Part shown: positions 1 through 24,191 of the stretch, piece by piece
Position numbering within the stretch: the stretch's first letter is position 1
Layout: each line of letters begins with the position of its first letter
Position numbers and translations under genes: made by a program
The notes under the pieces: model-generated
Seen by the model: the letters and a program-made list of their open reading frames with translations, nothing else
The model's database searches: none
Told to the model about the DNA's origin: nothing
Source of the DNA: Rhodoferax sp.
Lineage (GTDB): Bacteria > Pseudomonadota > Gammaproteobacteria > Burkholderiales > Burkholderiaceae_C
DNA length: 34,084 nt
Direction: 5' to 3'
Assembly (NCBI GenBank): GCA_030683195.1
Contig: JAUXQA010000319.1
Span: 1-34,084, forward strand

Positions 1-293
1 CAACTTGCCCTGAATAAGGCTTAAAGGTTGGCTGGGCTTTGAGTGAACAACCTGAACAGCTTTCCTGTAAGTGTTGGTTGGTTCAGGGCTACTGAACAAA
101 GCGATTTGAGTCGACTCAGGTGAATCCAAACGTGTTTGCATGGGTGGCAATTGTACGCAATACCGTCACCTTAAGGGTTTTTTTCTTTAGCAATAGTCGG
201 ACAGCACCTGTTGTGTAATTTAGATAACGCTTTAGTCATTTAATACCTTTAGGCATCAAAAAACTAAATAAAATCAATAACTTAGATCATTCT
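1..293. other. Non-coding left end, AT-rich flank of putative origin
   Basis: I see no convincing gene in this stretch. The last ~50 bases (about 241-293) are very AT-rich and lie directly against the first 18-bp iteron, which is the usual arrangement of a DNA-unwinding element beside iterons. No rep gene is visible here; if one belongs to this origin it lies left of the window or elsewhere on the replicon. Confidence 0.4.
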
Positions 294-342
294 AGGTGAC
301 TGTTTATGGGAGTGTAGGTGACTGTTTATGGGACATAAGGTG

Positions 343-351
343 TGTGGATAT
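343..351 (-). promoter_or_regulatory. DnaA-box-like site 1
   Basis: TGTGGATAT differs at one position from TGTGGATAA, the reverse complement of the DnaA box TTATCCACA. It sits inside the first degenerate iteron, and an identical copy lies 43 bp downstream. This supports an origin, but a 9-mer match alone is weak. Confidence 0.35.
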
Positions 352-385
352 GGGTGTGAGGTGACTGTTTATGGGACTTAAGGTA

Positions 386-394
386 TGTGGATAT
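386..394 (-). promoter_or_regulatory. DnaA-box-like site 2
   Basis: A second TGTGGATAT, again inside the degenerate iteron that alternates with exact ones. The same 9-mer replacing the iteron core twice suggests selection for DnaA-like sites rather than plain decay of an iteron. Confidence 0.35.
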
Positions 395-442
395 GGGCCT
401 TGAGGTGACTGTTTATGGGAAATCGATGATTTTCGATATCTA

Positions 443-484
443 AGGTGACTGTTTATGGGATAAAAATCCCATAAACAGTCACCT
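443..484. repeat. Perfect inverted pair of the iteron
   Basis: The last direct copy (443-460) is followed after TAAAAA by its exact reverse complement (467-484), giving an 18-bp-arm hairpin or palindromic binding site. Paired inverted iterons in plasmid origins often bind Rep dimers and take part in autoregulation or copy control. The downstream array multiplies this same module. Confidence 0.6.
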
Positions 485-620
485 TTAGAAATAAATTGCA
501 ATCACGTGACCGAATAAATTGATGAAAACGGTAGTTTGATCTGGAAATGTATTTGACAAACGTCACCTTTCATCTATGAAAGCTGTGAATTTTGTAGCTT
601 GAATGTATTTTTTGACACCG

Positions 621-1778
621 CCCATAAACAGTCACCTTTAGGCCTTCCAGCAGTTCCGGTCCATGCACAAAGACAGTGTTTAGGTGGCAAAAAACACTGT
701 TTTTTCCATCATCAGCTACTTTTCAAAGAGGCCAATCAGTGGAGAGGTGATGCTTTATGGGAAATGTTGTCCCATAAAGCGTCACCTTTAGACCCTCGCC
801 ACAGTACCGCCTAGGTCGCCGTGATGATCTTGAGGTGGCAAAAAACGCTGTTCATCCCATAAAGTGTCACCTCGACACTGAGGGACCCTTGTGAAGGGTG
901 ACTGTTTAAGGGAAATACTGTCCCATAAACAATCACCTTTAGGCCCTCTCCACAGTGCCGGCCCAGGCGCCCGGATGGTCTCTTGAGGTGGCAAAAAACG
1001 CTGTTCGTCCCATAAACAGTCACCTTTCACTAAGGCCCACCGGCATTAAGGTGACGCTTTATGGGAAATTCGGTCCCCTAAAGCATCACTCTTTGGCCTT
1101 CTCCACAGTGCCAGCCCAGGTGCCGGGATGGTCTTGAGGTGGCAAAAAACGCTGTTTGTCCCATAAACAGTCACCTTTTACCAGGGCCCATCAGCATTAA
1201 GGTGACGCTTTATGGGAAATTCGGTCCCCTAAAGCATCACTCTTTGGCCTTCTCCACAGTGCCGACCAGGCGCCGGGATGATCTTGAGGTGTCAAAAACG
1301 CTGTTCATCCCATAAAGCGTCACCTCAACACTGATGGACCGATGTGAAGGGTGACTGTATATGGGAAATTAGGTCCCATAAAGCATCTCCCTTTGGCCTT
1401 CTCCACAGTGCCAGACCAGGCGCCGGGATGGTTATGAGGTGGCAAAAAACGCTGTTTGTCCCATAAACAGTCACCTTTTACCAGGGCCCATCAGCGTTAA
1501 GGTGACGCTTTATGGGAAATTCGGTCCTATAAAGCGTCACCTTTAGGCCTTCTCCACAGTGCCAGCCCAGGCGCCGGGATGGTTATGAGGTGGCAAAAAA
1601 CGCTGTTTGTCCCATAAACAGTCACCTTTCACTAAGGACCATCAGCATTAAGGTGACGCTTTATGGGAAATTCGGTCCTATAAAGCGTCACCTCTAGGCC
1701 TTCTCCACAGTGCCAACCCAGGCACCGGGATGGTTATGAGGTGGCAAAAAACGCTGTTTGTCCCATAAACAGTCACCT
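621..1778. repeat. ~151-bp tandem array of inverted iteron pairs
   Basis: About eight units recur on a ~151-bp pitch. The landmark TCTCCACAGTGCC or a variant starts at 645, 796, 947, 1100, 1251, 1400, 1551 and 1702. Each unit carries an inverted pair of the iteron-like 18-mer as a hairpin (about 745-787, 896-938, 1049-1091, 1200-1242, 1349-1391, 1500-1542, 1651-1693), a conserved block with GAGGTGGCAAAAAACGCTGT, and one further inverted copy. Two versions of the core occur, GACTGTTTATGGGA and GACGCTTTATGGGA. ORF-track entries here (HKQSP, INSHL, CLWD peptides) are translations of the repeat, not genes. Likely roles are Rep titration/incompatibility or a partition centromere. The array ends 8 bp from the uvrD-like stop codon. 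Confidence 0.85.
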
Positions 1779-5400: not shown

Positions 5401-6048
5401 ATGATTGCGCGCATGCACGGCTCTAGCGGCCACAACCCGCTTCAACAACCCCTTTTCTTTGTCGAGCCAGAACACCGTCATTTGATGACAGACATCTGGA
5501 ACAAAAAAATCTTTATCACTGAACAGCGCAAGCTCAAGGAAGAAAAGAAGGCTCACCAGAGGATCGAGGTCCTTGTCGCCAAGTCCCATGCGGAGGGCAT
5601 CACTTGGACAAATATCCAAAAGCTGTTGGATCGTCCGATCGGTCACTATCAAGCATCAGAACTGGACATCCAGCCAGCAACCGATGAACCGTCGCCCATC
5701 CATCATGTCGATGGGGTCACCGAGGAGCGTATTGAGTGGACAGAGCAGGCAATGCTCGATCTTCACGAAGGCGTACTCAACTATTCGCTCCAACTCCTGA
5801 GAACCAGGGGAAACGCGAAAGAAAAACTGGAAATCCTCAATTGGATCTGGGCAGACGATGTCTACGACTTCGTGACCAGAAAAATTCGAGGCGTCAATAA
5901 ACAAGTCCCGATACGGGCAGATCAAATACCCTTTTCATTCCAGACGTGCTGTCGTCTTAGCGGATACCGCTATGACTTGCTGCGCGATGGATTGGCTTGG
6001 GAGATGCGAACTGCACTTGCCGCATTGGGATTCCAACCACGGAATTAG
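5401..6048 (+). CDS. Unknown conserved-looking protein, first gene of AAA/ssb operon
   Basis: 215 residues. ATG 5401 has a strong GGAGG at 5391-5395, so it is preferred to the GTG at 5389. The N-terminal half is charged and helical (EQRKLKEEKKAHQRIEVLVA), suggesting a short coiled coil. The C-terminal part (ILNWIWADD, then PFSFQTCCRLSGYRYDLLRDGL) looks like a small helix-turn-helix-like module, but I cannot name a family. It ends 2 nt before the CobS-like ATPase start, so translation is probably coupled and the protein may work with that ATPase. Function unknown. Confidence 0.75.
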   Translation: MIARMHGSSGHNPLQQPLFFVEPEHRHLMTDIWNKKIFITEQRKLKEEKKAHQRIEVLVAKSHAEGITWTNIQKLLDRPIGHYQASELDIQPATDEPSPIHHVDGVTEERIEWTEQAMLDLHEGVLNYSLQLLRTRGNAKEKLEILNWIWADDVYDFVTRKIRGVNKQVPIRADQIPFSFQTCCRLSGYRYDLLRDGLAWEMRTALAALGFQPRN

Positions 6049-6050
6049 CA

Positions 6051-6995
6051 ATGAACAAAACAAAGTACAGCCTCTCAACAGAGTTCGGCCTGGATATCGA
6101 CCCACGAGCAATGATCGATGGTTACGAGTCCGGTCATCCTGCTGCGCCGCCTATTAAAGACGGGTACGTCTTTCAAAGGGTAAAGTTGCGAGACATCCTT
6201 GCCTTCTGGCAATCGGGATTCACGGCGCTAAAGATCATGGGCGACCCTGCCACTGGCAAGACATCGCTGATTGAGCAATGGCATGCGCACCTGCGTTGGC
6301 CGCTCTATAAAGTCGCATGCTCTCGTTCCACCGAGGCATGCCGATTGATTGGTCACCTTGTGCCCACAGAGACCGGAGGCCTGAAATGGGTCGATGGACC
6401 TGTATTGAGGGCTGCAAAAGAGGGCACAAGTGTTTTGCTCGATGAGTACAACACCATGGATCCCGATCAGGCGACCGGTTTGAATCTATTGCTGGATGGT
6501 TATTCGTTCACAGTGGAAGAAACCGGTGAAATCGTGGTCCCACAACCTGGATTTCGAGTTTTTGCAACTGAAAACTCGATTCAATCTCGTTTGAGTGTGA
6601 CGGGAAGGAACGTTCAGGATGTCGCTAACGATGATCGGTTCACGGTTATGGAAGCCGACTACTTGCCTGAGGACTTGGAAATCAAGGCGCTTTACAACGC
6701 CATGCTTGCAGCAAAAATTGCGGAGCCGGTGGCGGCGCAGCAAGCCAAGTTGGTCGTCGAGCTTGCCAATAAAGTTCGGATGGCATACCGCAATGAGGAA
6801 GACGGTATCGAGAAACCAATGAGCCACCGCGCGGCAATTCGCTGGGCAATTCTTGCGTCCAGATATCAAGGGGTTCCAATCGCAGAGGGCGGGCCCATGA
6901 TTTACGCGCTGCATCGAGCTTTTGCAATGAGCAAAGAAATGGCAGCCGTAGTCGATACATACGCCAGAGTGAAACTGGGTCTGCCGACAGCATGA
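6051..6995 (+). CDS. CobS/MoxR-like AAA+ ATPase
   Basis: 314 residues from ATG 6051 (the ORF-track start 5997 lies inside the previous gene). Motifs: Walker A GDPATGKT (about 64-71), Walker B SVLLDE (about 127-132), and a sensor-1-like FRVFATEN; the body matches the AAA_5 group that includes CobS and MoxR. These ATPases usually act with a von Willebrand factor A partner to remodel or insert metal into a target protein. The likely partner is the VWA/CobT-like protein at 13154, with the DUF3150 protein at 12043; related cobS/cobT-type genes occur in IncC and SXT/R391 backbones as I recall them. No CobN chelatase subunit is present, so cobalt insertion is not implied. It shares an ATGA overlap with the next gene. 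Confidence 0.85.
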   Translation: MNKTKYSLSTEFGLDIDPRAMIDGYESGHPAAPPIKDGYVFQRVKLRDILAFWQSGFTALKIMGDPATGKTSLIEQWHAHLRWPLYKVACSRSTEACRLIGHLVPTETGGLKWVDGPVLRAAKEGTSVLLDEYNTMDPDQATGLNLLLDGYSFTVEETGEIVVPQPGFRVFATENSIQSRLSVTGRNVQDVANDDRFTVMEADYLPEDLEIKALYNAMLAAKIAEPVAAQQAKLVVELANKVRMAYRNEEDGIEKPMSHRAAIRWAILASRYQGVPIAEGGPMIYALHRAFAMSKEMAAVVDTYARVKLGLPTA

Positions 6996-7690
6996 AAGAT
7001 TGCCGAAACGTCTTGTTTGACGTCTTTCAGAATCCTCTCTCGAAGTCGGTCTACGCCTTCGGTGAGTTGCCTGACAAGTCAACAATTGTCCTGGAAAGAA
7101 ACAGCGACAAGGGCCATGCGGTCCTGAGGTCGCTGCCAATTGTTTCGGCGATGCAATTGATGGGGAAAAAGCTCCGTCAGGGGTATATCCGTGGCAAGTC
7201 GATGATGTATTTCGACGCGGCTGAACAGGCATTTACCCACGTACACCCTGATCTCAGTTGGGGTGGGAAGAACTGGCTTTTGGCAGCGAAAGCCCCAACC
7301 GTTCAACAAGGGATCGATGCTGTTGTGGCGGCGATCAGAAAGGCGCCACCCAGCGTCATTCACCCTGTTGAAATTGATGCATGGGCACTTCGTCAACAAA
7401 ATAATGCGGCGTATATCGTCGCATTTAACGACCTTCCGGTCTGGAGTTTGATTCTCACCGAGACATCCCTTAAAGAAGGATGGCTCGTGCGGGCGAATTC
7501 GCATCTGTCAGGGGCACCGTCCTTACTGCCTTCCATGAACCCCATCGAATGGGACGACTGGCTTCAACAAGTTTTCGAGCTAGACCTGGTGCAGCGCACG
7601 CGCGTGGAGCTGGGTTTTACCTTCGACAACATTCATAAATCTGACTATCAGGAAATCATCGATTCCGAGAATTGGTCTGCACTCATTTGA
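6992..7690 (+). CDS. Unknown protein, translationally coupled to AAA+ ATPase
   Basis: 232 residues, starting in a 4-nt ATGA overlap with the ATPase stop, a sign of coupled translation and related function. No transmembrane segment, signal peptide or known motif is evident. The sequence is an even mix typical of a soluble globular protein, with several Trp residues (SWGGKNW, PVWSLIL, EWDDWLQQ). I do not recognise the family. Its place between the ATPase and the OB-domain protein suggests an accessory role in the same DNA-related operon. Confidence 0.75.
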   Translation: MKDCRNVLFDVFQNPLSKSVYAFGELPDKSTIVLERNSDKGHAVLRSLPIVSAMQLMGKKLRQGYIRGKSMMYFDAAEQAFTHVHPDLSWGGKNWLLAAKAPTVQQGIDAVVAAIRKAPPSVIHPVEIDAWALRQQNNAAYIVAFNDLPVWSLILTETSLKEGWLVRANSHLSGAPSLLPSMNPIEWDDWLQQVFELDLVQRTRVELGFTFDNIHKSDYQEIIDSENWSALI

Positions 7691-7699
7691 AAGAATGTC

Positions 7700-8758
7700 A
7701 TGCTCAAATTTTGTATTTTTCTAATTACAACGATCCTGAAAGGGGTTGGATTCATCCTCACAGAGATTGCGAGACGAATCGCTGACATCGCTATTCCGCC
7801 TGCGCCTTACATCCAGGGTCTGGGTGGTGCTGATTATTCTGCACGCAAGGCGTACACAGAAAAAGCGATCAACCAGCTCATGGCGAAAGCCACGGTTGGT
7901 TCATATGCCAAAGTCGTGACCCCGGCCGAAACGCCAAAGGTTGACGAACGAGACCCTCTGGTCCTGCGCACGCCTCAAGAGCTAATGCCAGATCAGGGGC
8001 AGCTTGAGGGTCGGTGTAGCCCGCAGGTGTCTTCCAGGGTTCTCACCATCCCTTTAGAAGCGGACGGTGGTCTGCCCATTGGTACGGCGTGGATCTACCT
8101 GTTTGAGCGCGATGCCTCAGGCAAAGCGTTGCACAAGGCTCGCCGCGTTCTCAAGTTCAACAATCGTGCGCTTGCACGAGTCATTTGTGGGCCCGATGAA
8201 ATGCGTTACTTTTTCAAGGATGTCGATTACATTCCAGAAAATGGTACGCGTGAAATCTGCGATGCTTTTGTCGGTGAGATTCGCAAGCTCTTGGACAGGA
8301 AGCAAGCCTTCTCCAAGGCGGCGAAGATGAATGTCGCGGCTGAGAAGCCCAAGCCGATCGAAGCAGCAGCAATGCCGAAGCCAGATCCTGTGGTTGTGCA
8401 AGCGCCCGCGCTGCCTCCCACTTCAGCGCCAGTTCTCCAGAAGGCTATGGAGCCAATGCGCCCTGTGAATCGAACTGTCAAAGGTCAGGTTTATGAAGGG
8501 ATGGTGGTGAGTGCGGGAATGAGCACCAAGAATGGACAGACCGGGTCATATTCGACGTTTTGTCTCACTCTCAATGATGGTGAAAAAGAGGTGCCGCTAA
8601 ACGGCACCGAAATTCATCGCCAGTTCAAAGACATGGGAATCCGAATCGGTGAGCGCGTTAAAGTAGTGTCCATGGGACGTTCTCCAATAGACGTGCCGGG
8701 GCAAGAAAAACAAGGTTGGAAGAACCTCTACCAAATCACGCGATTAGGAGCACATTGA
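7700..8758 (+). CDS. Unknown protein with N-terminal hydrophobic helix and C-terminal OB-like domain
   Basis: 352 residues. Residues ~1-25 (MLKFCIFLITTILKGVGFIL) form a hydrophobic helix, possibly a membrane anchor. A globular part follows to ~200, then a Pro/Ala-rich linker (~215-255). The last ~90 residues (from VKGQVYEGMVVSAG through FCLTLNDGEKEVPLNG to GIRIGERVKVVSMG) resemble the small beta-barrel appended to some plasmid relaxases, primases and KfrB-type proteins; this is pattern recognition, not a confirmed hit. The stop overlaps the ssb start by 1 nt (TGATG), so the two are coupled. Function unknown; nucleic-acid binding is plausible from the C-terminal domain and from being next to SSB. 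Confidence 0.7.
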   Translation: MLKFCIFLITTILKGVGFILTEIARRIADIAIPPAPYIQGLGGADYSARKAYTEKAINQLMAKATVGSYAKVVTPAETPKVDERDPLVLRTPQELMPDQGQLEGRCSPQVSSRVLTIPLEADGGLPIGTAWIYLFERDASGKALHKARRVLKFNNRALARVICGPDEMRYFFKDVDYIPENGTREICDAFVGEIRKLLDRKQAFSKAAKMNVAAEKPKPIEAAAMPKPDPVVVQAPALPPTSAPVLQKAMEPMRPVNRTVKGQVYEGMVVSAGMSTKNGQTGSYSTFCLTLNDGEKEVPLNGTEIHRQFKDMGIRIGERVKVVSMGRSPIDVPGQEKQGWKNLYQITRLGAH

Positions 8759-9336
8759 TGATCAGCGTTACCGCAACCGGCTTCATTGGTGAAAAGCCGC
8801 AACTTCAGGTTGTCAGCGCTTCAAGCCAGAAGGTCGAATTCGACGTTATCTGGGGCCGCCGTGCGTTCAGCGCCGGGCAATGGAAAACGGCGTGGGAGCG
8901 CGCAACCTTCGTTGCTTGGGGTGAGGAAGCCGAACGAATCGCAGGTTCACTTGACAAGGGCAACAATGTCTCTTGCACGGGTTTGCAGGAAACCTCAGAG
9001 TGGACCGACCGCGATGGCAACAAGCGGTCCAAAGTCAAGTTCAAGCTTACTGCCTGGATCAAACACCACAACCCGCGACCACAAGACGCGGCACCTCAAT
9101 CAGGTAGGCCGGCTGCAGTGGACAGCAGCCATGGCCACAGCAAGGCCAATGAAAGGGCAGGGCACAGGGAGCAGTCTGAGGTGAACTATCAGCACACCAG
9201 ACAGCAGCAACCGGTACCGCCCGTGAACCAGGCACCCAGACCGCAACGCGGTTATGAGCCTGACAATTCGGACGAGCCTTTTGCTGGCTTTCCGGATTAT
9301 TCTGGAAACCATTCGAATGACTTCATCCGGATGTAG
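8758..9336 (+). CDS. ssb: Single-stranded DNA-binding protein (plasmid SSB)
   Basis: 192 residues from ATG 8758, with TAGGAG 7 nt upstream and a 1-nt overlap with the previous stop; the ORF-track start 8716 lies inside that gene. The N-terminal ~100 residues form an SSB OB fold (MISVTATGFIG, FVAWGEEAERIAGSLDKGNNV, VKFKLTAWI). A Gln/Pro/Asn-rich linker of ~70 residues follows. The tail contains DNSDEPFAGFPDYSG and ends DFIRM rather than the usual DDIPF tip, so its interaction with host SSB partners may differ. Plasmid SSBs protect single strands during transfer and replication. Last gene of this operon, followed by a 15-bp-stem hairpin. Confidence 0.85.
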   Translation: MISVTATGFIGEKPQLQVVSASSQKVEFDVIWGRRAFSAGQWKTAWERATFVAWGEEAERIAGSLDKGNNVSCTGLQETSEWTDRDGNKRSKVKFKLTAWIKHHNPRPQDAAPQSGRPAAVDSSHGHSKANERAGHREQSEVNYQHTRQQQPVPPVNQAPRPQRGYEPDNSDEPFAGFPDYSGNHSNDFIRM

Positions 9337-9342
9337 TTGACA

Positions 9343-9376
9343 CTTTCATCACCCAGGGCGACCTGGGTGATGAAAG
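9343..9376 (+). terminator. Perfect 15-bp hairpin after ssb
   Basis: CTTTCATCACCCAGG, loop GCGA, CCTGGGTGATGAAAG: a perfect stem 6 nt past the ssb stop. No T-run follows, so it is probably a stability or processing hairpin or a weak terminator. A strong intrinsic terminator lies 135 bp downstream. Confidence 0.55.
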
Positions 9377-9427
9377 AACGTCAATAAAAAATCGATATAC
9401 TGTGTAGGAGTTCTGCGAAAAGCTGCT

Positions 9428-9455
9428 TTGACAAAAGCGTTTTTCGGAGTATTCA
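9428..9455 (+). promoter_or_regulatory. Possible promoter for a short transcript
   Basis: A perfect -35 TTGACA (9428-9433), a 16-bp spacer and a weak -10 TATTCA (9450-9455). A start near 9462 would give a ~95-nt RNA ending at the strong terminator at 9512-9558. The -10 matches the consensus at only half its positions. Confidence 0.3.
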
Positions 9456-9458
9456 GGA

Positions 9459-9512
9459 ATGCCCAACATGGCGTTCAAGAAGCACGTAGCTGTACGTAAC
9501 ACCTCAGCATGA
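9459..9512 (+). other. Possible 17-codon leader ORF or small RNA body
   Basis: ATG 9459 opens a 17-residue frame (MPNMAFKKHVAVRNTSA) whose TGA ends exactly on the first base of the terminator stem. AGGA lies right against the ATG, too close for a good ribosome site. The segment may therefore be an attenuator-type leader peptide, the body of a small RNA, or chance. It lies between ssb and the ribonucleotide reductase gene. Confidence 0.25.
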
Positions 9513-9558
9513 AAGCAAGTTTTGACTAATAAACGTTAGTCAAAACTTGCTTTTTTTT
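9512..9558 (+). terminator. Strong intrinsic terminator (18-bp stem, T8)
   Basis: AAAGCAAGTTTTGACTAA, loop TAAACG, the exact complement, then a run of T. It would stop both the ssb operon and any short transcript from 9428. It lies ~190 bp before the reductase start, so that gene needs a promoter inside 9559-9750 or regulated read-through. Confidence 0.85.
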
Positions 9559-9673
9559 CGTCCTCACGACGACAAAGCCGTAGCTGGCAGACGAGGCAAG
9601 CGCCGAATCCAGCAATTTCACCCGTGGCATTTCACGCCACAACTCAATTCAATACTGAACTACGAGGGGATCG

Positions 9674-9727
9674 ACATCTGTGCATCCCCGCGTGGGAGCC
9701 CAGATGTGGATCAACTTCCCGATCCAC
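9674..9727 (+). promoter_or_regulatory. Possible alternative leader stems before nrdJ
   Basis: ACATCTG (9674-9680) can pair with CAGATGT (9701-9707), and GTGGATC (9706-9712) with GATCCAC (9721-9727). The two stems share bases 9706-9707, so complete versions exclude each other. The second stem lies 23 nt before the start codon. I see no cobalamin riboswitch consensus. Otherwise 9559-9750 shows no gene and no clear promoter. Confidence 0.25.
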
Positions 9728-9750
9728 TTTTAAACTGGAGAACCCAAAAA

Positions 9751-11760
9751 ATGAAAACAGAAAACAAGGGCGATTTGTCGCCGGAACCGCAAGAGTTTTG
9801 CAAGTCTGTCTTGCTGGAGAAGTACGCCCTGAAAGGCGAAACTTCAGCATTGGAAATTCATATGCGCGTGGCCAAAGGCCTCGCCAACGATGCCGCACAG
9901 GAAGCCCGCTTTCTCGATGCCTTACAAGCTGGCTTTGTCCCAGGCGGGCGGATCAATCGTGCCATTGGCTCGAATACTCTCACCACGGCGATCAGCTGTT
10001 TTGTTACGTGCGTGGGTGATTGCATATCGGGCGTGGATGCCTACGGCAACCCCGGTATCATGGATGCGTTGACTCAAAGTTCGATGACATTGCGTCTCGG
10101 TGGGGCTATTGACTATGACTTCTCTTTGCTTCGGCCATGTGGCTCGGTTGTCAAAGGCACAGACAGCCGCGCCAGTGGCCCGGTGAGTTACATGCGGGTA
10201 TTTGATCGCATGTGTGAGACGGTCGAATCAGCTGGAGCCCGCCGGGGTCAAATGGGCATTCTTCGTGTGGATCATCCCGATGTTGAGGCGTTCATTGATG
10301 CCAAGAAGGCGCCTGAGTTCAAGGGCCTACCTGAGCCCGAAGCGAAGGCTTTGCAGAAGATGCTGTCGGACAATCCTGCGTTCGGCTGGATGATGCGCAA
10401 ATCGTTTGCCACGCTGAGCAACTTCAACATCTCGGTGGCAATTACAGACGAGTTCATGCGTGCCGTGGAAGCGGATGGTGACTACGATCTGGTTCATGAA
10501 GCAAACCCCGGAACCGACTTGGCCGTCAAGAGGCTTGGCGCTGATGGTGTGGTGCGTTTCGTCTACAAGACAATCAAGGCGCGGCATGTCTGGGACAAGA
10601 TCATGACCAACACTTATAACGGTGCTGAGCCAGGTGTGATCTTTATTGACCGAGTCAATCATGACAACAACCTCCGCTATTGTGAAAAGATCGCAGCAAG
10701 CAATCCGTGTGGTGAGCAATTTCTGCCGCCCTTCGGTGCATGTGACCTGGGCAGCATCGGGCTGCACTGGCTGGTACGCAACCCCTTCAGCGCACAGTGC
10801 AATTTCGACTGGCGCGGTTTGCGGGAGCTGGTGACCACTGGCGTGGAGATCCTGGACCGCGTCCTGGATGTTACGCGTTGGCCGTTGCCTGAGCAACAAG
10901 TCGAGTCGGTAAACAAGCGACGCATTGGATTGGGCTTCTTTGCCCTGGGCGATGCCATGGCGATGCTCAACATCCGCTATGACAGTCCAGCAGGCGTGGA
11001 ATTTGCCGCGAACGTGGCCAAAGAGATGCGGGATAGCGCTTACGCTGCCTCTGTGGAGTTGGCTATCAAGCATGGGCCATTTCCGTACTTTGACGCGGAA
11101 CAGTATCTTGCAGAGGGTACCTTTGCCTCGCGCTTGCCAAGTAAGCTTCAGGATAGCATTCGCAAGAATGGGATTCGGAATTCGCATTTGCTGAGCGTGG
11201 CGCCAACCGGAACCATCGCACTTGCGCTCGGTAACGCAAGCTCGGGAATTGAGCCTATTTTCAGCCTGCGTCAGAAGCGCACGAAGGTGATGATGGATGG
11301 CACGCGAGAAGAGTTCTATCTGGAGAATGGTGCCTACAGGCACTTCCGGTTTGTCAAAGGAGATGACGCCCCGCCAACAATGTTCGTCACCGCGCTTGAA
11401 ATGAGTGTGGACGATCATCTCAACGTACTGCAGGCAGTGGCCCCTTACATTGACAGTGCCATCAGCAAGACGGTGAATGTGCCGGCTGAGTGCACTTTTG
11501 AGGATTTCTCCCAAGTCTACATTCGTGCATGGAGGGCAAATCTGAAGGGGATCACGACCTACCGGCCCAATTCCGTTGTCGGCGTGGTTCTGCAAGACGC
11601 TGACGAGGTGGTCAAGGCGTTGGAGTTGCCTTCAGGCGACCCGGATCGCCGCATCGAAATCAAGGAAGTGCATGCGATTACGAGCGGATTGAATGTGCAA
11701 ATTGTCACGCGATCGGTGAGTGCGGCTAGTGCGTTGACCGCAACTGAATCGAGTTGTTGA
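9751..11760 (+). CDS. nrdJ: Class II (adenosylcobalamin-dependent) ribonucleotide reductase
   Basis: 669 residues from ATG 9751, with CTGGAG upstream; the ORF-track start 9547 would begin inside the terminator. It reduces ribonucleotides to deoxyribonucleotides using a B12-generated thiyl radical. Visible signatures: FVPGGRINRAIGS near the N terminus, a Cys in the AISCFVTCVGD segment, the catalytic NPCGEQ loop (about 318-323: Asn, radical Cys, Glu), GACDLGSIGLHWL carrying the second redox Cys, and the APTGTIAL loop. No NrdB-type subunit is nearby, which fits class II. The C terminus ends with a single Cys (ESSC) and lacks the usual CxxC or Cys-rich tail that regenerates the active site, so re-reduction may differ. 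It is a single-gene unit with terminators on both sides and would supply dNTPs for plasmid replication. Confidence 0.9.
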   Translation: MKTENKGDLSPEPQEFCKSVLLEKYALKGETSALEIHMRVAKGLANDAAQEARFLDALQAGFVPGGRINRAIGSNTLTTAISCFVTCVGDCISGVDAYGNPGIMDALTQSSMTLRLGGAIDYDFSLLRPCGSVVKGTDSRASGPVSYMRVFDRMCETVESAGARRGQMGILRVDHPDVEAFIDAKKAPEFKGLPEPEAKALQKMLSDNPAFGWMMRKSFATLSNFNISVAITDEFMRAVEADGDYDLVHEANPGTDLAVKRLGADGVVRFVYKTIKARHVWDKIMTNTYNGAEPGVIFIDRVNHDNNLRYCEKIAASNPCGEQFLPPFGACDLGSIGLHWLVRNPFSAQCNFDWRGLRELVTTGVEILDRVLDVTRWPLPEQQVESVNKRRIGLGFFALGDAMAMLNIRYDSPAGVEFAANVAKEMRDSAYAASVELAIKHGPFPYFDAEQYLAEGTFASRLPSKLQDSIRKNGIRNSHLLSVAPTGTIALALGNASSGIEPIFSLRQKRTKVMMDGTREEFYLENGAYRHFRFVKGDDAPPTMFVTALEMSVDDHLNVLQAVAPYIDSAISKTVNVPAECTFEDFSQVYIRAWRANLKGITTYRPNSVVGVVLQDADEVVKALELPSGDPDRRIEIKEVHAITSGLNVQIVTRSVSAASALTATESSC

Positions 11761-11801
11761 ACAGTCGACTAAACGGCCTTTCACCATCCGGTTAATTTTT
11801 G

Positions 11802-11834
11802 AAACCCCTGCCCGATGATGCAGGGGTTTTTTTT
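11802..11834 (+). terminator. Intrinsic terminator after nrdJ
   Basis: AAACCCCTGC, an 8-nt loop, GCAGGGGTTT and a T8 run, 41 bp past the stop. A textbook rho-independent terminator that closes the reductase unit. Confidence 0.9.
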
Positions 11835-11891
11835 GCCCATATGACCCTCGCACTCCACCAGTTTTCGCTGCCAAATTGATGGGCGTGAAGC

Positions 11892-11925
11892 TATAATCCA
11901 AAAATATTTATGTGGTCTGACCACA
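11892..11925 (+). promoter_or_regulatory. -10 element with palindromic operator
   Basis: A consensus -10 TATAAT (11892-11897) followed by the 15-bp palindrome TGTGGTCTGACCACA (11911-11925), which would overlap the early transcribed region, a classic repressor position. The -35 at 17-bp spacing is poor (TGCCAA), so an activator may be needed. The unit read would be leader 2, the DUF3150 gene and the VWA gene. Confidence 0.45.
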
Positions 11926-11982
11926 GATAGGGTAGCTGGATCAACCTGATCGAAAGATCGTACCCAGCATAAATTTAGTCAA

Positions 11983-12045
11983 TCAACCCTCGGGGCAAGT
12001 TCCCCGGTGGGGCTTGCTCCTTTTTTTATTGGAGCGAGCCTCATG
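11983..12045 (+). promoter_or_regulatory. Structured leader RNA, copy 2 (TCAACC motif)
   Basis: TCAACC, then GCAAG, an unpaired TT, CCCC-GGT-GGGG, CTTGC, then TCC and a T7 run: both an attenuator-like hairpin and the same bulged fold as copy 1. Next, GCTCC can pair with GGAGC, which holds the Shine-Dalgarno of the DUF3150 gene. The outer stem covaries with copy 1. Confidence 0.55.
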
Positions 12046-13143
12046 ACAGGCGATATCGTTAGCAAAGATGCCACAGACCTTGTGTGCATCCAACTGGAAG
12101 TCCACATCTGGAGTGGACGCCGACATCTGGACAAATCTGACCTGGTGCATGCCAACCCCGAATTCGGGAAGCTGCCTGAGAAAGATCTGGCCAACCTCGG
12201 TTCGGTGAAGATTTGCGATCCGGAAGAAATCAAAACCTTCCAGAAAATCAAGAATCAGGCCGAACTGGTCCTCAAGCGTGCTGGTCTGCCAATCCTCGGC
12301 GCGACCGGTATCCCTGCAAGCAAATACCCTGAAGTCTTTCTGAAGCTCCAGGAGCTGCAGGATGAATACACAGCGAAGTCAGCTGCATTCGTAGCGGCAT
12401 TCGACCGCAACATCCGCGAATGGAAGTTGAAGCACTTGTTTCAACATCCAGAATGGGAGCAACTCTTTCGGGATTTGCCAACAGCGGATCATGTGGGCGG
12501 GCGTCTGTCGTTTCAGTTCCATCCTTACCGCATCTCTGCCCCGGCCGCTGAATCTCATCCTGATCTGAACGATCGGTTTGAAAAGCAAATGGGTGGACTC
12601 AAAGGCGAGTTGCTGCAAGAAGTGGCGACTGAAGCCGGGACGTTCATTAATTCATTGAGCAAAAAAACCGACGGCGGCATTTGCACCAAACGTGATTTTG
12701 TGACTCCCAAAACCCTTGGGCCATTGCGGCGCGCGGCGGAGAAGCTTGACGCGTTTGCATTCATCGACCCAACGATCGGACCACTAGCTACGTTGCTTCG
12801 CGACATGCTGGATGACTTGCCGGATCTAGGCCGTGTCGATGGTCAAAAATTGTTGATGCTCGGCGGCATTGCCCGCTTACTCAATGACCCAGTCGGAATT
12901 TCTGAACTGGCTGCCATTGCCCACAACGGCGGCACTGCTCAGGATGCAGTGTCTTCAAATGTCGGCATCCGGTTGTCCCAATGGGTTCCGGTAATCGACG
13001 AGGTGAAAACCATGCGGCAATCTGAGTCATCAAACGCGTTTCAAATTCAAAGTCATGTGACAGACGCCGATGAGCCGGCTGTCCAGACGATGGATCTGAC
13101 GGTGCGGTCGGATGAAGACGCATTCCTATCCAACCTTCTCTAA
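12043..13143 (+). CDS. DUF3150-like protein
   Basis: 366 residues from ATG 12043, with GGAGCGAG upstream; the ORF-track start 12007 lies in the leader hairpin. Soluble and helical with no membrane segment. The N-terminal ICIQLEVHIWSGRRHL-type segment, a middle WKLKHLFQHPEW region and the overall size fit the DUF3150 proteins found beside CobS-like ATPases and CobT-like VWA proteins on conjugative plasmids; the family call is from memory. The gene ends 10 nt before the VWA gene, so the two form an operon. A remodelling complex of ATPase, DUF3150 and VWA is the inferred role, substrate unknown. Expression is probably controlled by the palindrome at 11911 and leader 2. Confidence 0.6.
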   Translation: MTGDIVSKDATDLVCIQLEVHIWSGRRHLDKSDLVHANPEFGKLPEKDLANLGSVKICDPEEIKTFQKIKNQAELVLKRAGLPILGATGIPASKYPEVFLKLQELQDEYTAKSAAFVAAFDRNIREWKLKHLFQHPEWEQLFRDLPTADHVGGRLSFQFHPYRISAPAAESHPDLNDRFEKQMGGLKGELLQEVATEAGTFINSLSKKTDGGICTKRDFVTPKTLGPLRRAAEKLDAFAFIDPTIGPLATLLRDMLDDLPDLGRVDGQKLLMLGGIARLLNDPVGISELAAIAHNGGTAQDAVSSNVGIRLSQWVPVIDEVKTMRQSESSNAFQIQSHVTDADEPAVQTMDLTVRSDEDAFLSNLL

Positions 13144-13153
13144 AGGCGAGACA

Positions 13154-15337
13154 ATGAAGACGATTCAACAAATCGTCATGATGACAGAGGGCTTCGTTGC
13201 CCTCTGTCTGGGGTCGTCCGACCGCATCGTTTGGGTAAACCAGACTGACGCGGCGGCCTTCTCCGATGGCGAAAAACTCTACCTCCCAAGTCCGCAAGGC
13301 CTTGACGGAGAAATTGAACTTCTCCTCGGCATTGCCTTGCGGGAAGTTGCCAAAATCTTACATGGCAACGCGGATGTATTTGCATCAATCGCTCCATCGA
13401 TTTCTGGCTACACGGCATCAATTGAAGATGCTCGAATCAAACAGGAAATAAGCGAGACGTACAAGGGCGCCGCAAGCGTTTTTGATGCTGCTACCTCTGT
13501 GATTCGACGCATTGCCGTCGAAAGTCTCAGTGACGACCCGGTGAACCCGAACATGGCAGTGCAAATGGCCATTTGGGCAGGGGCCAATGATGCCTACCTT
13601 GGAACATTGAACAGTGCCAAAGCTCTGTTCGACCTGAGTGCAATAGCAGCCGGCTGCGTTGATCCAGTGAAGCTTGAGTTGGTCAATGCGATGACGCAAG
13701 CCGCTCCGTGGCTCAAGTCAACTCATGCCAGTGCTTTATGTGCCCAGCGGATCCATGCAATCCTTGTTGAGCCTGAGCCCGAGCCCGAGCCCGAGCCCGA
13801 GCCTGGTGAAGTTCAGCCTGAGCAGCCCCAACAGGGACAGAGTCAGCCTGAGCCGGAGCCTCAGCCAATGCCGCAAGGCGAAGGTCAAAGTGGAGATGAA
13901 GAAGACCCGCTGCCAAAGTCCGAACCAGAAGGTGAAGACGACGGTGAACAGCAGGAACAGAAGCCAGAGTCCGACTCATGTGGTCAAGATGATCCCCAGA
14001 ATGCTGATCCAAGCCAAGGGCAAGGTGAGCAGATTGCACAGGATGGCGCTCAATCTGAGGCCGGCGTTGACGTTGAGCAGCAAGGGTCCCAACCTGACGC
14101 GCGCCAACCAACCGACACGCAGCCCCAAGATGGCACATCGGAACCGGCAGAAGCGGGGCATGAAAAGGACCACGAGGCAGAAGAGTCGGGTCCTGGCGAT
14201 CAGCAGCCTGATTCGGACAACGATGTGGACGGTAGCGACCCAGTTGAGTCAGACCAGTCGGGTAGCCCCTCCAATGAGAAGGCTGCCAAAGACACCGGGG
14301 TGACTGAGTTCAGTTCGGACCCAATGAGCAACGCCTTGGCGATGCTCAAAGGGCACAAAGGTGCTGCACCAGCTTGTCAGCCGGGCCAAGCGGAAACGAT
14401 AGGGGAACACGCGCAGGTTGACAACAGCGTGCTTGCAGCTATTGCCCACGCGATGCAGCAGGCCGATGCAATGGAAATCATTTGTGATCTTGCACTCGCG
14501 CTTCCGATCGATGATTCGCAAGAGTCTCCCGAGGAAATGGAGGAAATGGAGGACGCAGTGCTGCTGGCTCTGTGTGCTGACCAGCTGGGCGGCGATGCAC
14601 CGGCATCGTCAGTCATGGATGCGGTGAACAACCTTGGATCTATGCCAGCACGACTCGTAAGCGTTTTGCTGCGTGAGTTTCAGGACAAGCGGCCCAAGAT
14701 GCAGCTTCGAAGCCAAAGTGGTCGCGATTTGTCCGTAAGACATTTGTGGCGCCTCAAAGCATTGGGTGATACCAAGGTATTTCGAAAGAAGACTCCTTCA
14801 TCCGGTATCGACGCTGCGGTGACGCTCCTGCTTGATCGATCTGGCTCGATGCACGGTGATATCGAGCTGGCTGCCAGCGCGACACACGCGTTTGCCCAAG
14901 CATTGCAGCGCATCAGTGGCGTAAGAACGGCCATAAGCCTGTTCCCGGGCGACAGTACGGCCACCATGGAACTGTTGCAGTTTAGACAAAGCGCTGTTCA
15001 TGCTGCGAGCAAGCTGCGTGCTGTGACAGCGCAAGGCGGCACACCAACCGATGAAGCAATCATGGTGATTCTTCCATCGCTGCTAAAGACCACAGTGGAA
15101 AAGCGATTCATTGTGTTGATCACGGATGGGGATCCGGACAACGTTGAGGCAACTCGAAAATCGGTTGCCCATGCGAATTCGGTGGGCGTGGATGTGATCG
15201 GCATCGGCATCGGCAAGCAGACACATATTCACGGGTTTCTTTCGCGCAGCGTGAGTATTGCTGACGTTGACGAATTGCCGATAGCGCTTGAAGCGCTTTT
15301 TAAAGACGAATTGAGCACCAATCTTTTGGTAGCCTGA
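13154..15337 (+). CDS. CobT-like von Willebrand factor A protein
   Basis: 727 residues from ATG 13154, with AAGGCGAG upstream. Residues ~1-200 are a globular N-terminal part. About 205-390 is a very acidic Pro/Gln/Glu-rich disordered linker that begins with a PEPEPEP run encoded by GAGCCC repeats. The C-terminal ~190 residues are a VWA domain with the metal site LLLDRSGSM (about 561), the Thr in GGTPTDEA and the Asp in LITDGDPDN. The long acidic linker plus VWA layout is that of CobT, the partner of CobS in cobalt chelatase, but such pairs also serve other systems. Partner candidates here are the ATPase at 6051 and the adjacent DUF3150 protein. No chelatase large subunit is present. Confidence 0.8.
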   Translation: MKTIQQIVMMTEGFVALCLGSSDRIVWVNQTDAAAFSDGEKLYLPSPQGLDGEIELLLGIALREVAKILHGNADVFASIAPSISGYTASIEDARIKQEISETYKGAASVFDAATSVIRRIAVESLSDDPVNPNMAVQMAIWAGANDAYLGTLNSAKALFDLSAIAAGCVDPVKLELVNAMTQAAPWLKSTHASALCAQRIHAILVEPEPEPEPEPEPGEVQPEQPQQGQSQPEPEPQPMPQGEGQSGDEEDPLPKSEPEGEDDGEQQEQKPESDSCGQDDPQNADPSQGQGEQIAQDGAQSEAGVDVEQQGSQPDARQPTDTQPQDGTSEPAEAGHEKDHEAEESGPGDQQPDSDNDVDGSDPVESDQSGSPSNEKAAKDTGVTEFSSDPMSNALAMLKGHKGAAPACQPGQAETIGEHAQVDNSVLAAIAHAMQQADAMEIICDLALALPIDDSQESPEEMEEMEDAVLLALCADQLGGDAPASSVMDAVNNLGSMPARLVSVLLREFQDKRPKMQLRSQSGRDLSVRHLWRLKALGDTKVFRKKTPSSGIDAAVTLLLDRSGSMHGDIELAASATHAFAQALQRISGVRTAISLFPGDSTATMELLQFRQSAVHAASKLRAVTAQGGTPTDEAIMVILPSLLKTTVEKRFIVLITDGDPDNVEATRKSVAHANSVGVDVIGIGIGKQTHIHGFLSRSVSIADVDELPIALEALFKDELSTNLLVA

Positions 15338-18865: not shown

Positions 18866-18903
18866 GTCCGAGCAAGTAACGTAAATTGCGGGTTTGCTCG
18901 GCC
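18866..18903 (+). promoter_or_regulatory. 38-bp inverted box, site B, upstream of traI-like gene
   Basis: GTCCGAGCAAG, 16 bp, TTTGCTCGGCC: the same arms and the same 38-bp length as site A, differing at one base in the left arm and one in the right. It lies between flhC-like and traI-like, ending 32 nt before the traI-like start, the same distance as site C to its gene. Confidence 0.7.
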
Positions 18904-18935
18904 AACGCAAGCGCAGCCGGTGGAAAAATCGGCGC

Positions 18936-20813
18936 ATGTTTAACTACCTTGCAAACAAAGTATTTGGCCGCGTCCATACTGCGCCGGTAGCCCTCGCTGA
19001 TGTTGGGGTAAAACGTGTTCCACCTCAGGGGCCTGGACGGTCGGATCAGCCCCATGTCCAATACCCCCCACAGGACCCAGGCTTCATTTGCCCCGAAGCC
19101 TCCGATCTGTTGCGCGCCCAGGCCGACATCATGGGCATGCTACGAATTCACGCCGCATGTTCCCCCGCGATGTTCAAAGATCGCTATGAACAGCCTATCC
19201 TGAACTTGGCGGCATACATTGCAAATCTGCCTGCCACTGCATCCGGAGTGTTTTCGGGAGAGGGTGGTTTGATGCGCGCCTGCGTTGAAATGGCGTTCAA
19301 CTCATTCAGAGCATCGGATGGCAGGATCTTCACCGGTGCCAGTGGCGTCGAGGAACGTCACCTGTTGGAAGGCCGGTGGCGCTACGTTTGCTTTGCTGCC
19401 GGCTTGCTGTATCCCCTTGGCGCCTCAATCGAAGCGATGCAGGTCATCGATGCACAAGGTAAGCGATGGTCGCCTGAACTCGATTCCCTTGTGTCTTGGG
19501 TAGACCCGGGAGAGCGCTACTGGGTGACTTGGCTGCATGAGGATGTACAGCCTGGCCCGTCTTCGATCATGGGGATGCTCCTGCACAAACTTCTTGGTCG
19601 GCCTAACATCGACTGGTTGAATGATGGCTCATCCGATTTGATCAAACGACTGCTTGAGATCATTACGGGGTCCGCGCTGGCCGCGCCTTTGATCGCTACC
19701 AACGTGGTCCAAAGCGTCTGGGTGTCGGTACATATGCGTGAAGTCGCACGGCGCCACCAGAACTACGGGCGTCTGACGGTTGGCTCGCACATTTCGCCCT
19801 ACATCATCGACGCCATGGTCGTCCTTACCAAGGATATGTGGGTCATCAATGAGAAAACAGTGTTTGCCGACGCCACGGGGGTGCATCTTGAATGGCCTGC
19901 CGCCGGGCGCGACATCATCGACTACTGCAAGGCCCGCGCATATCCTGGCGTTCCGTCGAGCGAAGCGGCGTTGCTGACGATGTTATCTGCCAACAAAATC
20001 ATTGTTGGCGGACTCGATGGCGTAGCCATGGTTGAAATTGCGAATGCCGATGGCGAAATCGTCGCTGCGGTCAAATTGGCAAAGCCCGGCCTGTTGGTGG
20101 ATGACCCCGCAATCTACGCTACCGCCAAAAGCAGACCCGTAGCGATCGAGGAAGTCATCGCGGGTGACCCATTGACCTCTGAATCCCCTGAGAAATCTCC
20201 AATTCGAACGAAGCAACCCAAGAAAGTGCTGCCTCCCGCTGAAGTCGCCACGCGCCCAACTCTGGACACCATTGAAATCGGTGAGCAGACAGGAATCCAG
20301 TCAACCACGGTTGCCCCCCCCCGGGGAAGCGCCAATACGGCTGAACCAGCCGCAGTTGCCGTTCAAGCTCCAGCGAATGAGGCAAAGCAATCCTCTGCCG
20401 TAGCACAGCCAGATCCTAGCGACTCAACTGATAGTCTCCCAATGGATGCCAGCATAGAGGGCACAGAAATCAAATACGCGGGGTTTGTAGACAAGGACGT
20501 TGCGTCAAAACTAAAACCGCATTCGGTTGAAATTCTCGGAAAAGTCATCCACGCTTGGCGCGAGAAGACGGACTTGCAGTACGTGATGCGGACAACATCT
20601 GTTGGCGCTGCAGTGGAGAAGGATTTCCTGTTGATGTGTTCTAGTCGTGGGATCGACTCGATCCTTGAGTTCGCGGCAGTTGGTTTGCTATACATTGATC
20701 CCACCCGTCCGGGGATCAAGATCCATCAGATCGCAACCGTGGATGGCGGACAAAAGAAGGTTGATTGCATCGTGTTCTCGCGCGGAGCTGTGAAACTGCT
20801 TGGGTTGAACTGA
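18936..20813 (+). CDS. TraI_2 (MOBH) relaxase-like protein lacking the catalytic histidines
   Basis: 625 residues from ATG 18936, with GGTGGA upstream. The N-terminal ~270 residues align by eye to the TraI_2 domain of MOBH relaxases: a segment in the place of LPASE-HHH...GGLLxH (here LPATASGVFSGEGGLMRA, about 98-115) and one in the place of LLHDIGKPVTD (here LLYPLGASIEA, about 157-167), followed by GKRWSPELDSL. The HHH motif, the following His and the HD pair are all replaced, so metal-dependent nicking as known for MOBH is not expected. A charged Pro/Ala/Thr-rich linker (~400-510) leads to a C-terminal winged-helix-like domain similar to TraI_2_C. The frame is open throughout and the gene lies directly before traD-like. 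It may be a structural or DNA-binding member of the relaxosome. Confidence 0.7.
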   Translation: MFNYLANKVFGRVHTAPVALADVGVKRVPPQGPGRSDQPHVQYPPQDPGFICPEASDLLRAQADIMGMLRIHAACSPAMFKDRYEQPILNLAAYIANLPATASGVFSGEGGLMRACVEMAFNSFRASDGRIFTGASGVEERHLLEGRWRYVCFAAGLLYPLGASIEAMQVIDAQGKRWSPELDSLVSWVDPGERYWVTWLHEDVQPGPSSIMGMLLHKLLGRPNIDWLNDGSSDLIKRLLEIITGSALAAPLIATNVVQSVWVSVHMREVARRHQNYGRLTVGSHISPYIIDAMVVLTKDMWVINEKTVFADATGVHLEWPAAGRDIIDYCKARAYPGVPSSEAALLTMLSANKIIVGGLDGVAMVEIANADGEIVAAVKLAKPGLLVDDPAIYATAKSRPVAIEEVIAGDPLTSESPEKSPIRTKQPKKVLPPAEVATRPTLDTIEIGEQTGIQSTTVAPPRGSANTAEPAAVAVQAPANEAKQSSAVAQPDPSDSTDSLPMDASIEGTEIKYAGFVDKDVASKLKPHSVEILGKVIHAWREKTDLQYVMRTTSVGAAVEKDFLLMCSSRGIDSILEFAAVGLLYIDPTRPGIKIHQIATVDGGQKKVDCIVFSRGAVKLLGLN

Positions 20814-20816
20814 TAC

Positions 20817-22763
20817 ATGGCCCAGCAAAAGTTCGAAAGTCTCCTGCGTCCGCTTTACGAAGCCCATGCTGTTGGCGCATGGCTTTTCGCAGCGCTGTGG
20901 TGCCTGGTGTGGGGCATCGTGGTTGACTTCGGCCGATCGACAATATTTTTGCTGGTCGTGATGTGTTTAGCAATTGCGGCCTGGCGTTCGATTGGGGCAT
21001 ACCGGCTGTCCAAACTCAAGCTGGGTCTCATTGGCAAGCCAATTGCCTTCATTGACACCAAACAGCTCGCGAATGCCATGTCAAAAATGGGCAACAACCT
21101 ATGGCTCGGATGGGGCTACCGCTGGGAGCCGCGCCATACCCGGCGCGCTTACGAGGTTATGAAGCACGATATGGCGGAAATCTATCCGAAGCCTTGGGTG
21201 CTGCGCCTTTTGGGCGAATCGAGAAACCCGAAAGACGAGCGTGGCATGCAGTGGATTCACGGCTTGGAGCCACAAGAGAAAGATATCTTGGTGCCCTTCG
21301 ATGCGTTGAAAGGCCATTGTGCAGTCATTGCCACGACCGGATCGATCAAGACCCGTCTGGTGTCGTTGATCGCGTACCAGTTGGCCACCCGAGGCGACAC
21401 AATCATCATGATTGACCCGAAGGGCGATCCTGAGCTGCGAGAAATTCTGCGTGCATGCGCCGTCGCCTCTGGTGAGCCCGAGCGTTTTTTGATGATGCAT
21501 CCAGCGTTCGCTAGTGAGTCCACACGTATGGATTTGTTAAAAAACTGGGACCGGGTGAGCCAAGTGGCCAGTCGGGTAGCGTTGGTGTTGGGATCTCAGG
21601 AGGAGTCCACGTTCAAAGAGTTCTGCTGGAATGCGGTGCACAGCATTACCAATGGCATGAAGTATGTCGGGCGGCGAGTGAGCATTCTTAGTCTGAAAAC
21701 ATCCATGCAATCACGAATCAGTGTCGAGCGCCTGACCGAAGAAGCGCTGAATGTTTTGTTTCGAGATCACGCGCCACACTTGAAGGAAAAGATCGAGGAA
21801 GAGGTCAACAAGATGTTGTCCGAAGGTGCCCCTAAAGGGCGCGGCAAGGTGAAGTCGAACATGGTTGAAACCAGTTCAATCGTACTCACTGCGATGATTC
21901 AGGTGTTCAATGTCTACCTGTCTGAAGACCATGCAGAGGCCGCGAGAACTGGCAACATGGAAAAGCCGGAAGAGTTGAGGGGCCTGATTGCAATTCTGGA
22001 GGCAAACAAGGAGTGGTTCGGGAAGATGATCGTGTCGATTACTCCCATGCTTACCAAGCTCAGTACCGATGACCTGAAAGGCTTGCTGTCACCGGACTAT
22101 GACGACATCAACGACACGCGGCCCATCATGGACATGATGCGGGTCATCCGTGGGAAGCATATTCTGTACGTGGGCACCGACACACTGGCAGACCCATCGG
22201 TCGGTCATGCCTTGGCGGCCATGTTGCTTGCGGACGCATCGGCTGTTGCCGCTGAAATATACAACCACGGTGTCGAGGGCGATGACGGCTCCACGCCACG
22301 ACGCATTCATGTGATCGTGGACGAATGGGGGGATGTGATGTGCGAGCCCTTGATTCAGCAGGCCAACAAGGGCCGAGGGGCCGGCATTTTTGTATGGGCC
22401 CTTGGCCAAACCCTGTCTGACCTCACAGACGCCTTTGGGGGCAATCAACCCAAGGCCCTACGTTTCATGGGCAACATGAACAACATGATTGTGGGTGCAA
22501 CCCAGGATTCAGCCACCATGGAAATGGTGTCAGAGAAATTTGGTATGACCTCAATTACCGTCAAGACACAAGGCCAGTCCACTGGCTCAAAAACAGAGGA
22601 TACCGGACTTGAGTTCTCAGTGAACAGATCGGAATCCATCAGCGAGCAATCGACCGAGCTTTTCCCACCCAGCCTTCTACCCGGACTACCCGACCTGCAC
22701 TACGTAGCAATGCTGAACCGTTCAGAGTTCATCAAAGGCCGCATTCCCGTTTTAAAACTGTAG
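20817..22763 (+). CDS. TraD/VirD4-family coupling protein with altered Walker A
   Basis: 648 residues, starting 3 nt after the traI-like stop. Two N-terminal membrane segments (about 20-37 and 42-56) precede the cytoplasmic ATPase domain, as in TraD of SXT-type systems. The P-loop position reads ATTGSIKT (172-179): the Lys and Thr remain, but the first Gly is Ala and the Gly before Lys is Ile. Walker B is intact (HVIVDEWGDVM, about 496-506), as is the IDPKGDPEL strand that normally follows. Coupling proteins dock the relaxosome to the type IV channel and pump DNA; here ATP hydrolysis may be weak or lost. Probably cotranscribed with traI-like under box B. Confidence 0.8.
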   Translation: MAQQKFESLLRPLYEAHAVGAWLFAALWCLVWGIVVDFGRSTIFLLVVMCLAIAAWRSIGAYRLSKLKLGLIGKPIAFIDTKQLANAMSKMGNNLWLGWGYRWEPRHTRRAYEVMKHDMAEIYPKPWVLRLLGESRNPKDERGMQWIHGLEPQEKDILVPFDALKGHCAVIATTGSIKTRLVSLIAYQLATRGDTIIMIDPKGDPELREILRACAVASGEPERFLMMHPAFASESTRMDLLKNWDRVSQVASRVALVLGSQEESTFKEFCWNAVHSITNGMKYVGRRVSILSLKTSMQSRISVERLTEEALNVLFRDHAPHLKEKIEEEVNKMLSEGAPKGRGKVKSNMVETSSIVLTAMIQVFNVYLSEDHAEAARTGNMEKPEELRGLIAILEANKEWFGKMIVSITPMLTKLSTDDLKGLLSPDYDDINDTRPIMDMMRVIRGKHILYVGTDTLADPSVGHALAAMLLADASAVAAEIYNHGVEGDDGSTPRRIHVIVDEWGDVMCEPLIQQANKGRGAGIFVWALGQTLSDLTDAFGGNQPKALRFMGNMNNMIVGATQDSATMEMVSEKFGMTSITVKTQGQSTGSKTEDTGLEFSVNRSESISEQSTELFPPSLLPGLPDLHYVAMLNRSEFIKGRIPVLKL

Positions 22764-22770
22764 TTACACC

Positions 22771-24177: not shown

Positions 24178-24191
24178 AAAAGCGACAAGTC

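Follow-up and report, generated by a model that had tools for sequence, protein, structure and literature searches.

Handcuffing models of plasmid copy-number control have been built on the direct-repeat iterons of a few enterobacterial plasmids. In P1 (incA) and RK2 (oriV), accessory iterons lie outside the minimal origin and lower the copy number, and in RK2 one iteron is found in the opposite orientation. Both have fewer sites than the array described here, and we know of no inverted-pair array or tandem unit in either of them.

Among the closest described counterparts are the incC iterons of F and the downstream iterons of RepFIB, which resemble the present locus in having Rep_3-type initiators (RepE and the FIB Rep) and a further group of initiator sites at a distance from the origin core, to which handcuffing has been attributed (PMC11983097). 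The incC iterons of F (FIA) and the downstream iterons of FIB handcuff the origin, and the downstream block of FIB alone displaces the plasmid (PMC11983097). In the locus studied here, by contrast, the additional sites number about 20 and are found beyond the origin on the upstream side of rep, and inverted, phased pairs arranged in a 151-bp tandem unit predominate among them. The ori2-inc region of Vibrio cholerae chromosome 2 (initiator RctB) is similar in its head-to-tail iteron core with a two-turn pitch and in the adjoining inhibitory initiator sites; it carries RctB 39-mers, a 29-mer and 11-mers, and its inhibitory neighbour region works by titration and handcuffing (PMC6090056). The inhibitory 39-mers, however, differ in sequence from the iterons (PMC6090056), whereas the distal sites of the present locus are iterons themselves. 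Inverted iteron half-sites have been shown to be bound by Rep dimers (PMC5395669).

The locus occupies the left end of a stretch of 34,084 nucleotides from Rhodoferax sp., here called the window, which is an entire contig of a 70%-complete genome bin. Reading from the left end, rep (minus strand) is followed by an AT-rich element, a cluster of iterons on a 22-bp pitch, an inverted pair and the array (Table 1). This is a genuine Rep_3-family iteron origin, and the initial annotation was right in placing the array beside a replication origin, as a Rep_3 rep gene starting at 141 on the minus strand, the AT-rich element and a cluster of iterons and DnaA boxes adjoin it. The window's Rep is visible for 47 residues only, its DNA-binding part lying beyond the contig end. 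Its N-terminus is 65% identical over 46 aa to the Rep of Azohydromonas australica (L039; blastp, E 1e-15), and the pOS401 Rep matches the window at 4-132 on the minus strand (tblastn, 44%, E 4.5e-5). These 47 residues align with the relatives, of which a full-length one contains the two winged-helix domains Rep3_N and Rep3_C (Pfam PF01051, PF21205), and a profile of the relatives' Reps matches the solved structures of RepE (F) and pi (R6K) among PDB profiles. The sole good match to plasmid DNA is 94 bp of the origin of pOS401, a Comamonadaceae plasmid, beside its Rep_3 initiator gene. A search of the window's own assembly found no second Rep contig, and no relatives of the Rep were found in viral contigs.

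Direct repeats about two helical turns apart are present beside rep at 294-420, interspersed with iteron variants at 338 and 381 that bear predicted DnaA boxes (TGTGGATAT at 343 and 386), which are conserved in the relatives. The candidate operator next to rep has the same place and form as an AGGTNAC-N17..19-GTNACCT element adjoining rep in L027, L038, L039, L041-L044, L046 and L051.

Table 1. Features of the rep-proximal end of the window.
Feature	Position	Strand	Basis
rep, N-terminal 47 codons, Rep_3-family initiator, cut by contig end	1..141	-	tblastn, blastp, alignment
Candidate rep operator, GGGTGGC-N16-GTCACCT inverted iteron half-sites	142..171		weak candidate, from comparison with relatives
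AT-rich element (DUE), with family-conserved TTTAATACCTTTA at 239	181..293		sequence; motif in most relatives
Origin core, iterons at 294, 316, 359, 403	294..420	+	pattern search; 21-22-bp pitch
Perfect head-to-head inverted iteron pair, N = 28 between AGGTGAC and GTCACCT	443..484		
Array, about eight 151-bp units, 20 iteron matches	620..1778		Tandem Repeats Finder, pattern search, box positions
Head-to-head pair B/C, unit 1, N = 29	745..787		
59-bp A-to-B (tail-to-tail) segment, inverted orientation, copy 1	855..913		inner 23-bp identity
Head-to-head pair B/C, unit 2	896..938		
Box AGGTGGCAAAAAACGCTGTT and iteron A	986..1025	iteron A minus	box positions; unit variability
Head-to-head pair B/C, unit 3, C arm decayed	1049..1091		
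Head-to-head pair B/C, unit 4, C arm decayed	1200..1242		
59-bp A-to-B segment, inverted orientation, copy 2, carried by 451-bp block duplication	1308..1366		
Head-to-head pair B/C, unit 5	1349..1391		
Head-to-head pair B/C, unit 6	1500..1542		
Head-to-head pair B/C, unit 7	1651..1693		

The remainder of the window carries several further features. An ORF of 737 aa at 9547-11760 resembles ribonucleotide reductase by eye, and behind it, at 11930-11995, the Rfam model of the DUF3085 cis-regulatory RNA (RF02959) is matched exactly at the gathering score. An AAA_5 (MoxR-like) ATPase, a DUF3150 protein and a CobT/VWA-domain protein stand in a row within 5997-15337, together resembling a plasmid-borne module of the chelatase type. 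The region 18894-33853 is a conjugation-like block with a TraI_2 (relaxase-associated) domain found by Pfam, and with ORFs resembling, by eye, a coupling protein, VirB-type secretion genes and a tandem AAA ATPase.

A search with the iteron pattern AGGTGACNNTTTATGGGA, in which up to 3 mismatches were tolerated, gave 26 matches in the window against 0.21 expected from shuffles, all of them within 294-1778. As six of these belong to the origin (294-484) and 20 to the array (620-1778), the figure of more than 20 copies given in the initial annotation holds for the whole locus and is too high for the array itself. In sequence, the sites of the array match the origin iterons exactly or nearly so. 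A pattern search of the other contigs of the same assembly, with up to 2 mismatches, found no match.

The repeated inverted iteron pairs on a pitch of about 151 bp were confirmed, as seven head-to-head pairs and eight boxes 150-153 bp apart were found. The eight copies of the conserved AGGTGGCAAAAA box (AGGTG[GT]CAAAAA) follow one another at 151, 153, 151, 150, 150, 151 and 151 bp, with the box AGGTGGCAAAAAACGCTGTT recurring at 682, 833, 986, 1137, 1287, 1437, 1588 and 1739. The array opens with a lone iteron at 620, followed by a first unit in degraded form; thereafter each unit consists of the box (plus strand), iteron A (minus) 21-22 bp on, iteron B (plus) 41 bp on, iteron C (minus) 25 bp on and a long spacer. 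The start offset of the seven complete head-to-head pairs (B/C) is exactly 25 bp and that of the seven tail-to-tail pairs (A/B) exactly 41 bp, while the length of the units ranges from 149 to 153 bp, with the differences confined to the C-to-A spacer (83, 85 or 87 bp). Conservation within the unit is highest in the box (variability 0.014), followed by the iterons (0.03-0.10) as against 0.26 for the remainder. Together with iteron A the box forms AGGTGGC-N26-GTCACCT, which exceeds the candidate operator at 142-171 by about one turn, suggesting an operator-like pair of half-sites. An exact search found the box at none of the other loci of the relatives gathered at that stage. The sequence TTCTCCACA, one base off a DnaA box, occurs once per unit in five units (1099, 1250, 1399, 1550 and 1701), possibly as a chance sequence copied by duplication. 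A coding repeat was rejected, since the length of the unit is not divisible by three and an 80-aa ORF at 788-1030 changes frame from unit to unit. An assembly artefact was judged unlikely, as the units are distinct enough to be separated and a collapse would shorten the array.

Units 1-7 are mostly 65-91% identical to each other along their whole length, the degraded first unit 50-63%. Tandem Repeats Finder reports 745-1779 with a period of 151, 6.9 copies and 83% matches, and a period of 451 scores higher; this corresponds to a three-unit duplication of 451 bp, in which the block 745-1199 is 86% identical to 1200-1650. When the inner 23 bp of the two inverted 59-bp segments (Table 1) are compared with the segments of opposite orientation, identity is 0.57-0.70 after reverse complementation of the latter and 0.13-0.26 without it. 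The history of the array is thus one of tandem duplication together with one inversion between inverted iterons. In the order of events that we propose, the single terminal inverted pair of the family would have been amplified in tandem, giving rise to the 151-bp unit first and to the three-unit 451-bp block next, and a 59-bp stretch between two inverted iterons would have been inverted once.

Because the units are homologous through tandem duplication, the 151-bp pitch is largely inherited, and selection for phase is not needed to account for it. A strict helical phasing of the units was therefore dropped: 151 bp correspond to about 14.4 turns at 10.5 bp per turn, which is not the integral 14 turns proposed initially, and the sequence between the pairs, which had been thought to vary while a phase of 149-153 bp was kept, is in the window homologous in all units.

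For comparison, rep regions were drawn from plasmids, contigs of species-representative genomes and whole genomes, and a weight matrix was fitted for each upstream region. A tail of iterons on the upstream side of rep is a conserved element of more than 50 related plasmids, and it often closes in one head-to-head inverted pair. Between 7 and 28 iterons were found upstream of rep in nearly all of the 47 regions of a first survey and in 15 of the 19 of a second (two of the 15 being poor or weak calls). The relatives typically show five or six iterons on a 22-bp pitch, a cluster present in nearly all relatives with iterons, and then a distal tail, often of direct pairs 26 bp apart. Tails closing in a single head-to-head pair were found in L027, L039, L041, L043, L044, L031, L048 and L072, and it is to plasmids with such tails that the N-terminus of the window's Rep is closest. 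Most relatives have few strand switches, their arrays being in one orientation, compared with 18 in the window. The number of pairs, whose comparison among relatives had been proposed as a check, is one in most of them, four in the Azohydromonas-type arrays described below and seven plus one in the window. Facing iteron pairs are therefore a conserved feature of this plasmid family, and since the tails of many relatives end in one head-to-head pair, the 151-bp unit is best read as an amplified terminal pair. A text search for inverted iterons in an open-access library found no description of such arrays, the papers recovered being one on a plant virus and one on Paracoccus plasmids, the latter with single partial inverted iterons, so that the feature has apparently not been described for this family before.

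Some loci follow other patterns. No recognisable iterons of the family type were seen upstream of rep in Methylibium (L030/L089). L030 (Methylibium RPME01) has two Rep genes about 1.5 kb apart, with a different repeat, ATCCGGACGAT, before the first and no family iteron seen before the second. In a Burkholderia sp. replicon (L057), direct iterons upstream of rep have expanded independently to about ten copies on a 40-bp pitch. Three further Rep hits (L091, L092, L097) had too few seed matches for scoring.

The spacing inside the inverted pairs varies in a regular manner. The number of bases N between the AGGTNAC and GTNACCT half-sites clusters at 28-31, 39-40, 48-51, 58-60, 68-69 and 88-91, with off-phase values at 33, 42-43, 55, 71 and 72, and the values of the window pairs, 28 and 29, agree with this periodicity. 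Terminal pairs, taken as one value per Rep cluster with distinct N (n=11), gave R=0.86 with a best period of 10.0, and none of 5000 random sets was as strong, although the periodicity had been noticed before testing and the independent values are few and were grouped by hand. Adding weak pairs (n=31) gave P=0.0004 for a periodicity of about 10 bp, and loci gathered later, tested together with the window at a preset phase, gave P of about 0.004. A change of pair spacing in whole helical turns with a period of about 10 bp is thus supported, if not proven.

An array of inverted pairs exists in a second lineage, which overturned our view of the window as unique in this respect. L093, L096 and L099 each contain four head-to-head pairs on a pitch of 82-86 bp, the four being orthologous among these loci, and L094, L095 and L098 contain two each. 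The lineage is probably Azohydromonas, because one of its genomes carries a copy 100% identical to L039. Like the window, these loci have a 22-bp origin cluster followed by alternating plus and minus iterons, and the tail-to-tail offset is 38-40 bp as compared with 41 bp in the window. The Reps are about 40% identical to those of the window's nearest relatives, and the head-to-head N is 48-51 instead of 29. Further, the spacers between units, homologous in the window, are near random here, with an identity between paralogous pairs of 0.50-0.53 (random being about 0.45). Despite this, the gaps remain at 26-29 bp and 20-22 bp, implying selection on spacing. The initial proposal of a phase held while the sequence varies, which fails for the unit pitch of the window, thus applies to the Azohydromonas-type arrays and to the spacing inside inverted pairs. 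One genome, probably also Azohydromonas (G789), contains five related Rep genes (L039, L094, L097, L098, L099), at least four of them with different iteron sets, which suggests several coexisting replicons with diverged iterons.

We consider it likely that the array is an enlarged distal negative-control locus of the inc/cop type of a Rep_3 plasmid, which titrates and handcuffs Rep and arose by tandem amplification of the terminal pair. As in other inc/cop loci, extra copies of the origin iterons are present outside the minimal origin, 20 of them at 620-1778, and distal copies occur in the relatives too. Rep binding, titration and handcuffing at the array are what we infer from the F/FIB, Rep-dimer and ori2 analogies, because of which the array would be expected to titrate Rep and to pair with the origin. 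Rep bound to the 22-bp-pitch iterons at 294-420 would, with DnaA, open the AT-rich element and start replication, while Rep on the distal sites would deplete free Rep and handcuff Rep bound to the origin of the same or of a sister plasmid, so that a rise in copy number would lower initiation by titration and handcuffing. The array is thus probably a brake on copy number. The earlier suggestion of a Rep sink for copy number gains support from the identity of the array sites with the origin iterons and from the distal tail accompanying rep in all but a few relatives; a replication barrier, also suggested, has no specific support. Against our preferred reading count the decay of some C iterons, which have lost conserved bases, and the fact that the box, for all its conservation, falls short of a full iteron.

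Such decay would be expected if the array were a neutral by-product of unequal exchange or slippage, a tandem duplication of one terminal pair without a selected role beyond that of the ancestral pair. The clear duplications linking the units, including the three-unit block and the inversion, are in agreement with this, as is the unrelated 40-bp expansion of direct iterons in L057. It is nevertheless unlikely, as the iterons and the box are less variable than the remaining unit, all seven units have the same head-to-head and the same tail-to-tail offset, and an independent lineage retains four inverted pairs after near-random divergence of its spacers.

Large repeat arrays beside origins can also be centromeres, at which a ParB-type protein binds and segregates the plasmid, and in pOS401, JS666 and an Acidovorax plasmid the parAB genes are located close to the iteron region. 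Such a partition site, named as one option initially, appears highly improbable here, since the repeat of the array is the Rep iteron itself and the immediate neighbour gene in the window encodes a UvrD-type helicase, not a par protein. Moreover, many relatives have parAB on the far side of rep with the iterons still upstream of rep; because the iterons stay there wherever parAB lies, it is rep that the sites accompany, not parAB, and the linkage to parAB expected of a ParB centromere does not hold in several relatives. Least probable of all, and hardly to be expected, is that the pairs act as cruciforms or RNA hairpins, whether in a single-strand origin, a regulatory RNA or a recombination site. 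When four of the inverted pairs were folded as single-stranded DNA, three did form an uninterrupted stem (-17 to -21 kcal/mol, z about -10), but the arms differ at 1-5 positions per pair, mostly uncompensated, and the unit-3 pair weakens to -9.5 kcal/mol. In addition, the loop reaches tens of bases in the relatives with the helical phase retained, and the array has no match to an Rfam family.

Returning to the inc/cop reading, the spacing of the facing iterons would put the two Rep molecules on the same face of the helix, favouring Rep-Rep contact, and an arrangement of iterons that face each other in phase points to a complex dedicated to inhibition. It is conceivable, although we regard this as a tentative proposal with somewhat less than an even chance of being correct, that phased facing pairs are a distinct control element at which the initiator assembles an inhibitory complex unlike the direct-repeat complex of initiation, with the number of pairs serving as an evolutionary dial of copy number. 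Large betaproteobacterial plasmids with inverted control pairs, whole-turn spacing and one to eight pairs would thereby make the geometry of the inhibitory Rep complex accessible to testing.
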